A stretch of 6,451 bases of DNA from a bacterium (lineage in GTDB: Bacteria > CSSED10-310 > JAJRTK01), in the NCBI GenBank assembly GCA_024278345.1, contig JAJRTK010000149.1, positions 1 through 6,451 on the forward strand. The letters run 5' to 3'. Every line of letters starts with the position of its first letter. Position 1 is the stretch's first letter. The notes beneath the pieces were generated by a model. That model was not told the origin of the DNA. It ran no database searches and saw only the letters and a list, made by a program, of their open reading frames with translations. This document shows, one piece after another, positions 737 to 6,451 of the stretch. A program made the position numbers and the translations under genes.

Positions 737-2655
<1,919 letters not shown>

Positions 2656-2677
2656 GGTCTTTTGAACCTCCAGACTC

Positions 2678-3346
2678 CTAGGAAACGAGACCCGTCAGTA
2701 CGGCCAACGGAATGAGCACGAAGCCCACGAAGAGTACCGTCGCCACCACCGCCGACAAGACCTTGCGCCAAGCGTTGTACCGGGGATGGTTCAACCCCAA
2801 CGTCTGGAAGAGGCTCCAGACTCCGTGCAACAGGTGAAACCCGATCACAAACATGGCCACTATGTAGATGACAGCGATGGCTGGATGCGAAAAGTCGGTC
2901 ACAACGTTTTGGTAGACCGCCTCGTGATTGAAATTCGGCGCCGTGGAATGGAAAGTGCCCACGGTGAAATGAAGCAGATGGTAGACAAGGAAAACCAGAA
3001 TCGCCGGACCCGTGATGAACATCGACCGCGACGGAATCCCCGCGATGATCGGCTTGTATTTGCGATAACCGATGGCCCGGCTCCGGCGGTTTCGCAAGAA
3101 AAGCTGCACAATGCAGGCGATGTGGAGCACCAACGCCGACAGCAAGACCAGCCGCGCAACGTAGAGAAGGCCAGGCTTGCTCTTGAGAAACTCCGCGTAA
3201 TGGTCGAAAACCTGCTGCCCCATGAAGATCTGCAAGTTCCCCAGCATGTGTCCGATGAGGAAGCCAAAAAGGATGATGCCTGTCACGGCAACCATCGCTT
3301 TCTTCCCCACCGTGGTCTTGTAAAAGGATAGTGCGCGAACAATCAT
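2678..3346 (-). CDS. sdhC: Succinate dehydrogenase cytochrome b558 membrane subunit
   Basis: This is the membrane anchor and quinone-reacting subunit of complex II, of the single-polypeptide, five-helix, diheme class known from Bacillus and Wolinella. It has 222 residues. Hydrophobic segments lie at about 17-37, 61-84, 109-131, 154-178 and 195-219. The N-terminal [23 protein letters not shown] segment resembles the start of the b558 family (TIGR02046-type). Heme-ligand candidates, one per central helix, are H33, H75, H123 (or H126) and H171 (or H174), spaced as in Bacillus SdhC. No separate SdhD is present or needed for this class. The ATG has GGGAG at 3355-3359, 8 nt upstream. A 5-bp hairpin with a TCG loop at 3358-3370 overlaps that ribosome site and could slightly reduce initiation. 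It is the first gene of the sdhCAB operon. Confidence 0.95.
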
Positions 3347-3471
3347 GTTGGTCTCTCCCTCTTCGAGAGGAATGTCCCGGCCGTGGACCCCGCCTCGAGC
3401 TCGGACGCTCCCTATCCGCCACGGGAATTGGCATTGCGAGCTCTTCTGCCATGAGCGTCGCCAACGGGCTC
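3347..3471 (-). promoter_or_regulatory. Intergenic region expected to hold the sdhCAB promoter
   Basis: This 125-bp gap between the glycosidase stop and sdhC is the only non-coding space before the sdh operon, so a promoter is expected here unless sdhCAB is read through from upstream. I see no convincing -35/-10 pair. An imperfect hairpin (about 3459-3486; CGCCA pairing TGGCG with further bulged pairs) overlaps the glycosidase stop codon, but it has no T-run on the minus strand and is a poor terminator. The assignment rests on position alone. Confidence 0.3.
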
Positions 3472-4689
3472 CTATGGCTCGTGGCGGCAGTTCGTCATCA
3501 GTCGTGGCGAACGCCCTCCAGCGGGTTGCTCTTCAGGGCCGAGTCGGGGGGAAACAGCAACTCCCGAATCAAGCCGACCACCGGCCAGCTCGTGGAGGAA
3601 CCGCTTCAATACCTCCTCCGCCGGCTTGCGCCTGGGCGTGTAGGTCCGGTCCTCGGGACCACCGTCTCCCCACCAATCGTAGAAAAAAATTCCGGACAAG
3701 AGATCGTCCTGGGCGAAACTATAGCGGATCGCCTGATAGCAAAGCGCTTGCTCAGCGAGATCCAAAGGTCCCTCCATGACGTAGTTCCACGGATCTTCGT
3801 TCGCTCCGTCGATGCTCGGGTACCCGATCTCTGTGAACACGATGGGCTTTCCGTGCTCCCGCCTCCATTCCCAGAGACGCTCTCTTATGGGCTTCCAGGC
3901 TTCCACAAGCTCCCGCAAATCCGGATCACTCTTGCCAGTGAGCGAGAAGTAGCCCGAAATTCCAATAAAGTCCAGCGCGTCAAAGAACCTTGCCACATTA
4001 TAGTGGTCCCAATTGGCGGCATAAGTGACCTCTCCACCATAGAGAGCACGGACCTCCGCGATCAAGCCTCGCCAAAACCCCTCGTGCTTTTCCATGGAAC
4101 AAAGCTCAGAGCCAACACTCAAGGCTTCGATCCTCTCCCGCTGGGCAAGACGCGCATAACTCAAGAGCATCACCCGGTACGACTCGGACCACTCCTCCAA
4201 AGGCTCCGGTTCGATGTTGCCACGCCAGTCCTCCTCACCAGGGTTCGACAAAAGAACGATGGGCAGAAGAAGCACTTTCAAGCCCTGTCGATGCGCCTGA
4301 CAAACCGCCCTGGCAATCTCTTCTTCTGTCGCCGTGAGAAGCGGGTCCGGGCCAATACAGGTCGAATGGCGGCCCTCCTGGTATTCCGGCACGAGAATCT
4401 CCACCCAGGTCGCCCCCAACTCCCGGATCTCCCGCATGTGCCGCTGGTAGCTGAAACCCTCCTCCTTGCCGTAAAGCCCCAGCACTACCCCTGCCCGCAT
4501 CCGATACGGTTCCGCCGAAGCCAGCGGTATGGCCAGCCCCACCGCCTCGTCTCCTAGGAGATCTTCTCTCCCCGGAGACTCCTCTGCCCCAAAGAAAATC
4601 CAAACGCACGCGCCAACGATCACCATAAACATCGAGCCGGGAGCCCATCCACTCATCCGCTTTGAAAAAAGCCGGAAAAGAACCTTCAT
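3472..4689 (-). CDS. GH113-like glycoside hydrolase, secreted or membrane-anchored
   Basis: Residue numbers are from the ATG at 4689, giving 405 residues. A basic N-terminus (MKVLFRLFSKR) precedes a hydrophobic stretch at about 20-34, which looks like a signal peptide or membrane anchor. The rest reads as a TIM barrel of the GH113 type, a family that includes endo-beta-1,4-mannanases. Visible motifs are GVVLGLY near 68, SVGSEL with E195 as probable acid/base, TYAANWDHY near 222-230, DFIGISGYF near 240, FTEIGYPS with E287 as probable nucleophile, and a YDWWGDGG...YTPRRKPAEEVL tail. Both catalytic glutamates are present, so it should be active, but the substrate is unknown because many GH113-like proteins are untested. 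The frame is open upstream to a GTG at 4872. I prefer 4689 because the upstream part runs through a palindrome-rich spacer. ATG at 4743 or TTG at 4770 (behind AGGAGG) remain possible, and no start has an ideal ribosome site. Confidence 0.8.
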   Translation of the reverse strand: MKVLFRLFSKRMSGWAPGSMFMVIVGACVWIFFGAEESPGREDLLGDEAVGLAIPLASAEPYRMRAGVVLGLYGKEEGFSYQRHMREIRELGATWVEILVPEYQEGRHSTCIGPDPLLTATEEEIARAVCQAHRQGLKVLLLPIVLLSNPGEEDWRGNIEPEPLEEWSESYRVMLLSYARLAQRERIEALSVGSELCSMEKHEGFWRGLIAEVRALYGGEVTYAANWDHYNVARFFDALDFIGISGYFSLTGKSDPDLRELVEAWKPIRERLWEWRREHGKPIVFTEIGYPSIDGANEDPWNYVMEGPLDLAEQALCYQAIRYSFAQDDLLSGIFFYDWWGDGGPEDRTYTPRRKPAEEVLKRFLHELAGGRLDSGVAVSPRLGPEEQPAGGRSPRLMTNCRHEP

Positions 4690-4986
4690 GAAAACCGCAC
4701 CCCAACAGACAAAAGCCCCAACACCACGATCAAGAGAGGCCATTTTTCCCCATAAACCGACTTGAATCAACTGCCCTCCTACCTCTCCCCCTTCGAGGAG
4801 CCTGCCCTCCAGGGCGCAACTCCCGTAAAAACAGCCTGTTTTTTTTGGTTTGACTTCCGCTCCCGTCGGCACGACCCGCGCCTAAGGCGCGAGTTCCCCC
4901 GGTCCGCCGCCACTCGCCCATCATCCCCCCGGACGCTGCCCATTCCCCGAAACCCGAGACAGCCGCAAAATACCTTGACGGGGTGG
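4690..4986. other. Palindrome-rich spacer with no recognisable gene
   Basis: About 300 bp lies between the glycosidase start and the hairpin element. Two frames stay open on the minus strand, but their translations are low in complexity and match no family I know. It contains a GCCCT-CC-AGGGC inverted repeat at 4804-4815, an AT-rich inverted repeat AAAAACA-GCC-TGTTTTT around 4827-4843 with a T-run on the plus strand, and a perfect CGCGCC-TAA-GGCGCG hairpin at 4877-4891. On the minus strand a TTGATT at 4765-4770, 17 nt from AAAAAT at 4742-4747, is a weak promoter candidate for the glycosidase. The stop of the long frame reading through from the peptidase remnant lies at 4730. Confidence 0.5.
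4877..4891. repeat. Perfect 6-bp-stem hairpin with TAA loop
   Basis: CGCGCC, loop TAA, GGCGCG. It is perfectly paired and GC-only in the stem. It is not followed by a T-run on either strand, so it is not an intrinsic terminator. Its build (short GC stem, 3-nt loop) is like the hairpins of the element at 4987-5178. Confidence 0.6.
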
Positions 4987-5178
4987 TGGTCATCGTTTCG
5001 GCCACCCGATAAAAGCGTGCAGCGCACAAAAATGTGGGTCCAGGGAGCGCGCTCCCTGGCGTGGGCCTGGGAGCAGCGCTCCCAGCGGAGGTCCGGAGGC
5101 GGAGCCTCCGCCGGGTTCCAGGGCCGGAGGCCCTGGGGCGGCGCCTGAGATTCTGCAGGGTGGCCGAAACGATGACCA
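4987..5178. mobile_element. 192-bp non-coding element with 21-bp perfect terminal inverted repeats (MITE- or REP-like)
   Basis: The left end (4987-5007, starting TGGTCATCGTTTCGG) and right end (5158-5178, ending CCGAAACGATGACCA) are perfect reverse complements over 21 bp. The 150 bp between them encodes no plausible protein and is filled with hairpins. The peptidase homology on its right stops at about 5179-5180, within a base or two of the inverted repeat, which is what an insertion would leave. I find no target-site duplication: the outer flanks differ. The remainder of the interrupted gene is not found on the left side, so a deletion may have accompanied or followed insertion. A non-autonomous transposable element, or a composite REP-type element moved by a transposase encoded elsewhere, is the best guess. 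A structured RNA or recombination site is an alternative. Confidence 0.7.
5017..5136. repeat. Array of five hairpins with regular spacing
   Basis: There is a small hairpin GTGC-AGC-GCAC at 5017-5027, then four perfect ones: 5040-5059 (a 20-bp palindrome, CCAGGGAGCG and its complement), 5067-5085 (CTGGGAGC, loop AGC, GCTCCCAG), 5094-5110 (CGGAGGC, loop GGA, GCCTCCG) and 5118-5136 (CCAGGGCC, loop GGA, GGCCCTGG). The last four start 27, 27 and 24 bp apart. The 7-8 bp spacers are G-rich and related (GTGGGT, GTGGGC, GGAGGT, GGGTT). Arm sequences differ between units while pairing stays perfect. No T-run follows any of them, so they are not ordinary terminators. Confidence 0.85.
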
Positions 5179-6297
5179 AGGCCGCGATTTTAAAACCAGC
5201 GTCAGTGGTAAACCAGATTGTGCGCCGAGTTTGTGTTTCATTGTTATCCAAGGGAATCTGGTGCCAGCCGGCCCAAGCCATGAGGTTCCTGGAATAGCCG
5301 GGTGGTATGGACAGATAGTTGGTGTTGTCGAGCTGAGAGTTGCCTACACGAACTTCGGAGAGGACTTGCCGGCGATGGGTCAATGCAGAGTTTACAAGAC
5401 TTCCCAGGGTCGCTGAGAGATAAAGCTCAGATCGGTCCTCCACGCGGTAGGCTAGGAAATAGGGTCTTTCTCCGTTGTCTGGCGGTCCCATCTCCACCTT
5501 CACTGCCTCACCACGAGCTGTATCGGCACCTGGATACGTCGTTTGGTCTTCGTCGGAGTTTCCCGCGGCGGGAGGCGAGGAGGGACCAGTGTCGGAAAGC
5601 CTTAGCTGTTCCATTGATCGATGAAGTTCTTGTTCCAGGCTGCGAAAGAGAAATTCATCGGTCGATTCTGGAATGATCGACTTTAGATTTTCCTCAGACT
5701 TCGAGACGACCAAAGACTCGGTTTCTTGGGGGCTGCTGCCTTCTAGTGCCTCCGGGGTCTGATGCGTGCGGTCGCTGGCCGGAGCGGGAAGCAAGGGAGG
5801 GCGATCCTGGGACCATTCAGTCTTTTGGAGTTCGATCCTGGAAATAAGAAGTTCTGGTGCCACCGCTGCCACCGGTACCTGCCCCGATTCCGCACCACAA
5901 GTTCCATTGAAGACCGACATCTGATCACCGCTTGAGACAACGTTCCTAAGGGCTGTAAGGGGAGTTCCGATGATGCGGGAGCCTCGTATGAGTTCTTTGT
6001 GCCCGTCGGGAAAAAGGCGGTAAACCAAGGTAGGTTCCACGTGGAACGAATTGAGGCTCGAACGACTTGTATGGGCGACGCCGCCGTTGATTTCTTCGAC
6101 CCAAAGGCCGTAGGGAAGGCCCTCTTTCTTGACCTGTTCAAGGAGTTGTTGACGAAGCTCTTTGGCGGGCATCGGTTCAGATGTCTGAACGAAGAGCCTC
6201 GACTGGCGGGAGACAGGAGCATATCCGATCTCCTTCCGGCCGTGGCCGTGAGAGCGGAGAAATCCCTCGATGGGAGAACGGGACATAAGGAACCCGC

Positions 6298-6451
6298 GGG
6301 ACCTATCAGATCCGGTTGACAAGTCCACGCACGAAAGGAACCCACCGTTCAATTTCGTGAATCCCATCCAGCCCGCCACCGGCAAGATGCCGGTGCCACC
6401 GTTTCGGCGAAGACAATTGTAAAGCAAAAACACGACAATTTGATAGGTCCC
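6298..6451. mobile_element. Inverted-repeat-bounded segment, probable small insertion (may extend past window)
   Basis: GGGACCTATCA at 6298-6308 is the exact reverse complement of TGATAGGTCCC at 6441-6451, the last bases of the window. The pairing may continue outside. Peptidase homology begins directly at the left repeat (the codons for GFLMSRSP lie at 6272-6295), so this looks like a second small element inserted in the peptidase gene. It holds a bulged hairpin at 6330-6359 (CACGAAA with TTTCGTG), the perfect hairpin at 6377-6395, and two direct copies of GACAATT (6411-6440 region). No credible protein is encoded. An 11-bp repeat could arise by chance, so the coincidence with the homology break is the main support. 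Confidence 0.5.
6377..6395. repeat. GILPV-type dispersed palindrome
   Basis: CACCGGCA, loop AGA, TGCCGGTG is a perfect 8-bp stem. On the minus strand the surrounding bases read GGCACCGGCATCTTGCCGG, which translates in one frame as GTGILPV. I know this signature from spurious ORFs made by a dispersed palindromic repeat in Verrucomicrobiota, Planctomycetota and some other phyla. That link is from memory and not checked here. Confidence 0.65.

Follow-up and report, generated by a model that had tools for sequence, protein, structure and literature searches.

The window, the whole 6,451-nucleotide stretch analyzed here (contig C69 of the assembly), contains a TldD/PmbA-like coding sequence broken at one side, and next to the break lies a 202-bp noncoding element with inverted repeats at its ends and a row of hairpins between them. 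The features are listed in Table 1. The window closes on the right (6380-6451) with a different dispersed repeat, ACCTATCAAATTGTCGTGTTTTTGCTTTACAATT...GGTGGCACCGGCATCTTGCCGGTG, which is also found in the contigs C80 and C332.

Table 1. Features of the window. Copies A and B are the two MITE copies discussed under the window junction.
Feature	Position	Strand	Basis
Left target duplication of copy A, CCTTGACGG	4973..4981	+	Partner in contig C122
Complete MITE copy, 202 bp	4982..5183	+	Alignment of 30 genomic matches; target duplications
Left 24-bp terminal inverted repeat, GGTGGTGGTCATCGTTTCGGCCAC	4982..5005	+	21 bp of the end region pair perfectly with the right end
Hairpin 1, CCAGGGAGCGCGCTCCCTGG	5040..5059		DNA fold; ten-copy pairing analysis
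Hairpin 2, CTGGGAGCAGCGCTCCCAG	5067..5085		Both-sided changes at three pairs among copies; fold and pairing analysis
Hairpin 3, CGGAGGCGGAGCCTCCG	5094..5110		Ten-copy pairing analysis
Hairpin 4, CCAGGGCCGGAGGCCCTGG	5118..5136		Both-sided C-G to T-A change shared by half of the copies in the alignment
Right 24-bp terminal inverted repeat, minus-strand reading, GGCCTTGGTCATCGTTTCGGCCAC	5160..5183	-	Same 24-mer in unrelated genomes
Right target duplication of copy B, GCGATTTT	5184..5191	+	Partner in contig C425
TldD/PmbA-like coding sequence split by copy B	5192..6345	-	Frame goes on in C425; upstream limit approximate

Ends and hairpins of the element

An earlier sequence-only reading had drawn the element at 4987-5178, with perfect 21-bp inverted repeats at its limits. 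The repeats are exact in a self-match, 4987-5007 pairing with 5158-5178, but the alignment of copies shows the true element to be longer (4982-5183). Mismatch between its 24-bp ends is confined to the outermost bases, which are GGTGG on the left and GGCC on the right.

Folded as DNA, the element region gave -83.7 kcal/mol, compared to a mean of -47.8 kcal/mol for shuffled sequences (z = -9.4), in keeping with the REP-like hairpin interior ascribed to it. The hairpins are kept among the MITE copies by paired changes: across ten divergent copies, the ends and hairpins have standard pairs in 96.4% of cells, and 10 pairs have changed on both sides, a number reached by none of the shuffles. The interior lacks coding potential, as had been proposed; the MITE has no transposase of its own, and the open reading frames crossing it are mechanical, with no family matches. 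A search of the element against Rfam matched no families. A role of the hairpins in transposition or in transcription termination might be guessed at. Hairpin arrays akin to the MITE interior, lacking the MITE ends, are seen at L102 (4628-4711), L111 (4768-4864), and L106 (6853-6901).

Copies in the source genome

Rather than the single copy that the sequence-only reading had named as grounds for rejecting mobility, a BLAST search of the source genome with the element returned at least 45 matches (40 candidates scored) with distinct flanks unrelated to one another. The copies sit in both orientations, within genes, and within other transposons. The 24-bp end occurs at 233 sites in the source genome at up to three mismatches, compared to none for the reversed control, and there are more than a hundred MITE copies. 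Target duplications of 8 bp, agreeing at 7 or more bases, flank 13 of the 28 complete copies and duplications of 9 bp flank 4, giving 17 of 28 with one or the other; L006 and L019, both among the 28, have common flanks and may be one site. In the duplication control, 7 of 8 bases were reached in 2 of 756 mismatched flank pairings. The proposal of a repeated, nonautonomous element with fixed ends is thus upheld by these counts. Among 40 further genomes, seven of them from the same phylum, the element was found in none.

Four MITE variants (L005, L027, L099, and L114) have one or both ends interrupted by roughly 36 bp of inserted sequence, GTGGTGCCTTCGGCAGCTCTCGCTGTCGCTCGGACC or one like it, and are probably immobile. 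In L114 (contig C456), CGTGACCCTTCGAGTCACGCAAA units also form a short tandem array where the contig starts, at 40-150.

The window junction

The right end of the element does coincide with the break in the TldD/PmbA gene, and the flanks of the window copy agree at 0 of 8 bases, which means that this copy has no target duplication. Both points had been noted earlier, and a deletion event had been deduced from them; the deduction does not hold. At its end, contig C425 has the left 124 bp of the element, identical to the window and preceded by GCGATTTT. Contig C122 has the right 121 bp, again identical to the window, followed by CCTTGACGG; this partner of the window's left flank was found with a variable gap allowed. 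If C425 is joined to the right part of the window, with copy B and one duplication taken out, an uninterrupted TldD/PmbA frame runs over the junction, and the joined frame matches the PmbA/TldD C-terminal domain (PF19289) with E = 7.6e-13.

C69 is a crosswise joining of two identical copies, of which copy A links the left part of the window to C122 and copy B links C425 to the right part. Because all four flanks of these copies are present in the assembly, the missing duplication and the missing half gene require no deletion: the terminal part of C425 supplies the other half of the gene and the matching duplication, and that of C122 supplies the partner of the left flank. A chimeric assembly join is the simplest and best reading of C69, a recombinant being less likely, and the apparent gene deletion would come from MITE repeats that broke the assembly rather than from a real event. 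A contig end lies within 300 bp at 27 of the 30 end sites checked, where 8% would be expected, and for this reason the repeat is probably a main cause of assembly fragmentation.

Insertion sequences bounded by the same ends

A search through a collection of 84,980 species genomes yielded at least 20 stretches matching the end sequence, where by our own estimate well under one would be expected by chance. The matches come from Chromatiaceae, Magnetococcales, Desulfobacteraceae, other Deltaproteobacteria, Verrucomicrobia, Anaerolineae, and Litorilinea, and include Chloroflexota. In several of these taxa the ends enclose insertion sequences of 1.8 to 1.9 kb with 8- to 9-bp duplications and a protein of the DUF6399 family (PF19936), the only type of gene found with these ends. 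The element at 1827-3708 of the Magnetococcales contig L135 measures 1882 bp between the ends, is flanked by the duplication CCAATCTT, and encodes a 587-aa protein that matches PF19936 with E = 1.7e-47, together with subthreshold helix-turn-helix and integrase-core matches. A second DUF6399 element, on a Thiodictyon plasmid (L146), has the duplication GTCCAACC and a protein 41% identical to that of L135. Whole genomes that carry the ends supplied three more DUF6399 elements with duplications, L154 (GCGCATTG), L165 (AGCCGGTTG), and L169 (GGAATTGC), and others, L155, L158, L160, and L168, with paired ends and no duplications.

In a whole-genome search, 6 of 11 genomes carrying these ends had DUF6399; the C-terminal DUF6399 domain was unmatched in the other 5, in one of which (L129) an N-terminal fragment adjoins an end. 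No exact match to the end was found in viral contigs, and one DUF6399 relative was found there (L175, 2901-4594), an element with different 23-bp ends (GGCTACCC...; GGCTACCCACTTAAAGCGGGACA) and the 8-bp duplication TTCATTTT. This suggests that DUF6399 elements have at least two types of ends. In contig C188 of the source genome, an L175-like end comes after a DUF6399 remnant. A literature search found no paper naming DUF6399 or PF19936, and the papers with a matching end string were unrelated.

Outside the source genome, too, short hairpin MITEs are bounded by ends of this kind: 124 bp in Lamprocystis (duplication GACGACCG), 140 bp in Desulfobacteraceae (AAAACAAC), 122 bp in Litorilinea (GGCAACGA), and 160 bp in Thiodictyon (GTTGCGCC). 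The hairpin core GGCTGGAAGCC is found within MITEs of both Lamprocystis and Desulfobacteraceae (L122, L131, and L136) as well as within those of the source genome.

DUF6399 remnants and transposase genes in the source genome

The autonomous copy with the same ends that the sequence-only reading had suggested looking for exists elsewhere, as the DUF6399 insertion sequences; the source genome bin, which is 88% complete, has only decayed copies and no intact DUF6399 gene. In C80 a DUF6399 fragment stops 23 bp before an end, and in C507 a fragment adjoins an aged end and has a MITE nested inside it, with the duplication GAAAGCGA. Further fragments are in C387 and C188.

Other candidate partners were considered and rejected. 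A PF00872 search of the source genome for an IS256-type transposase gave no matches, and DDE_Tnp_1 matched just once, in a gene fragment with which a contig begins. The IS1595-type copies do not share the MITE end but have GGCTCTATATGCG instead; two such transposase copies, L093 and L094, are bounded by GGCTCTATATGCGATCC. A second insertion sequence, seen in C33 (L095, 39-1657) and at the end of C464 (L116), has ends TGGGGTGGTGAATTT and a 423-aa protein that matched no Pfam or NCBIfam families. It is not the MITE parent but is instead nested in a MITE, with ends of its own and the 9-bp duplication GGTCCAGGG.

Transposase-like signature of the DUF6399 protein

Transposases of the prokaryotic Mutator-like (p-MULT) group have a D-D-E triad, a C/D(2)H motif 11 to 19 aa past the second D, and a helical insert of 99 to 138 aa from the second D to the E, and their elements have ends of 18 to 39 bp that carry a terminal C, flanked by duplications of 8 or 9 bp (PMC3942029). 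In all eight DUF6399 proteins compared, D178, D232, D252-x-x-H255, and E505 are invariant. The 19 residues separating D232 from D252 fall at the edge of the p-MULT range, still within it, and the 24-bp terminal-C ends and 8- to 9-bp duplications of the elements agree with the group as well. The distance from D232 to E505, predicted to be helical, is 273 aa and lies outside the range. We therefore propose that the DUF6399 protein works like a Mutator-type transposase and claim no membership in a named p-MULT family, because the insert is 273 aa rather than 99 to 138.

Matches of the protein to NCBIfam were subthreshold only, and a comparison with solved structures found no credible relative. 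Structure predictions were of low confidence (mean pLDDT of 41 for one sequence and 51 for two sequences); the strand order near the acidic residues fits an RNase H-like fold, at pLDDT values below 50, and a fold search returned only coiled-coil and other helical proteins.

Origin of the element and alternatives

We think it very probable that the element is a high-copy MITE, a hairpin array set within 24-bp ends and served by a DUF6399-type transposase, and that the window is a chimeric join. Copies of the MITE have constant ends and target duplications, the same ends bound DUF6399 genes elsewhere, and decayed DUF6399 genes with these ends remain in the source genome. In the mechanism we propose, a DUF6399-type (PF19936) DDE transposase, supplied by complete insertion sequences that share the ends, would bind the MITE ends and mobilize the element, catalysis presumably following a Mutator-like course, with insertion by staggered cuts of 8 bp and sometimes 9 bp; any part taken by the hairpins would be additional conjecture.

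The bin has no intact DUF6399 gene, as might be expected if another transposase moved the MITE and the DUF6399 elements matched it through borrowed ends only. We hold this to be decidedly unlikely: the IS256-type, DDE_Tnp_1, and IS1595-type candidates fail for the reasons given above, the C33/C464 insertion sequence is a guest in the MITE, and only DUF6399 genes were found with the MITE ends. The hairpin interior would suit a REP/RAYT-like element, for which a Y1 transposase had been suggested as the mover. Fixed long inverted ends with 8- to 9-bp target duplications, as found here, are a hallmark of DDE transposases, however, and a Y1 enzyme would leave no target duplications around the copies it inserts, making such a mover highly improbable; the partner indicated by sequence would be the DDE-type DUF6399 protein. 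We give almost no credence to a functional RNA or regulatory element conserved at a single fixed locus, which would account for the stable fold and covarying hairpins but not for so many copies scattered over unrelated loci, oriented either way and lying inside genes and other transposons, nor does it find a match in Rfam.

A different alternative concerns the junction alone. No differences separate copies A and B where they can be compared, so recombination between them is conceivable, and an inversion or translocation would have left a real junction with mixed flanks, the element still being a MITE. Such an event seems unlikely, in that all four flanks persist, that C425 and C122 both end inside the element, as assembly breaks would, and that end sites so often lie near contig ends.

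With a DUF6399-type transposase as the preferred mover, a Pfam family of unknown function gains a likely function, tied to a recognizable end and a target duplication, and a partner is predicted for hairpin MITEs in several phyla. We somewhat favor the broader view that DUF6399 represents an undescribed, phylum-crossing insertion sequence family with a Mutator-like signature, which repeatedly yields hairpin MITEs, one of them in more than 100 copies here.

Comparison with known systems

The p-MULT families (IS256, ISH6, ISLre2, and ISKra4/ISMich2/ISAzba1; PMC3942029) resemble the present system in their inverted repeats, which measure 18 to 39 bp and have a terminal C, and in their duplications of 8 or 9 bp, and resemble DUF6399 in the D-D-E triad, the D(2)H about 20 aa past the second D, and the long helical insert. 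In contrast, the Pfam IS256 model detects nothing similar in the source genome, the NCBIfam transposase models never rise above cutoff with DUF6399, and the D2-E spacing of DUF6399 is about twice as long. The IS1202 family likewise combines a large DDE transposase with inverted repeats of 24 to 26 bp, but has TGT/ACA ends and, in its Acinetobacter members, 5-bp duplications, compared to GGCC ends and 8 to 9 bp here; in the wider IS1202 group, duplications are 3 to 5, over 15, or 0 bp (PMC10132070).

REP, BIME, and REPIN sequences share the tandem GC-rich hairpin modules, whereas the long DDE-type ends and target duplications belong to the MITE described here. Other bacterial MITEs, such as MITEAba12 (PMC6382973), are similarly short and noncoding, with inverted ends, target duplications, and high copy number, but they hold a deleted transposase gene inside, where the present element has a GC-rich hairpin array and a likely DUF6399 partner.
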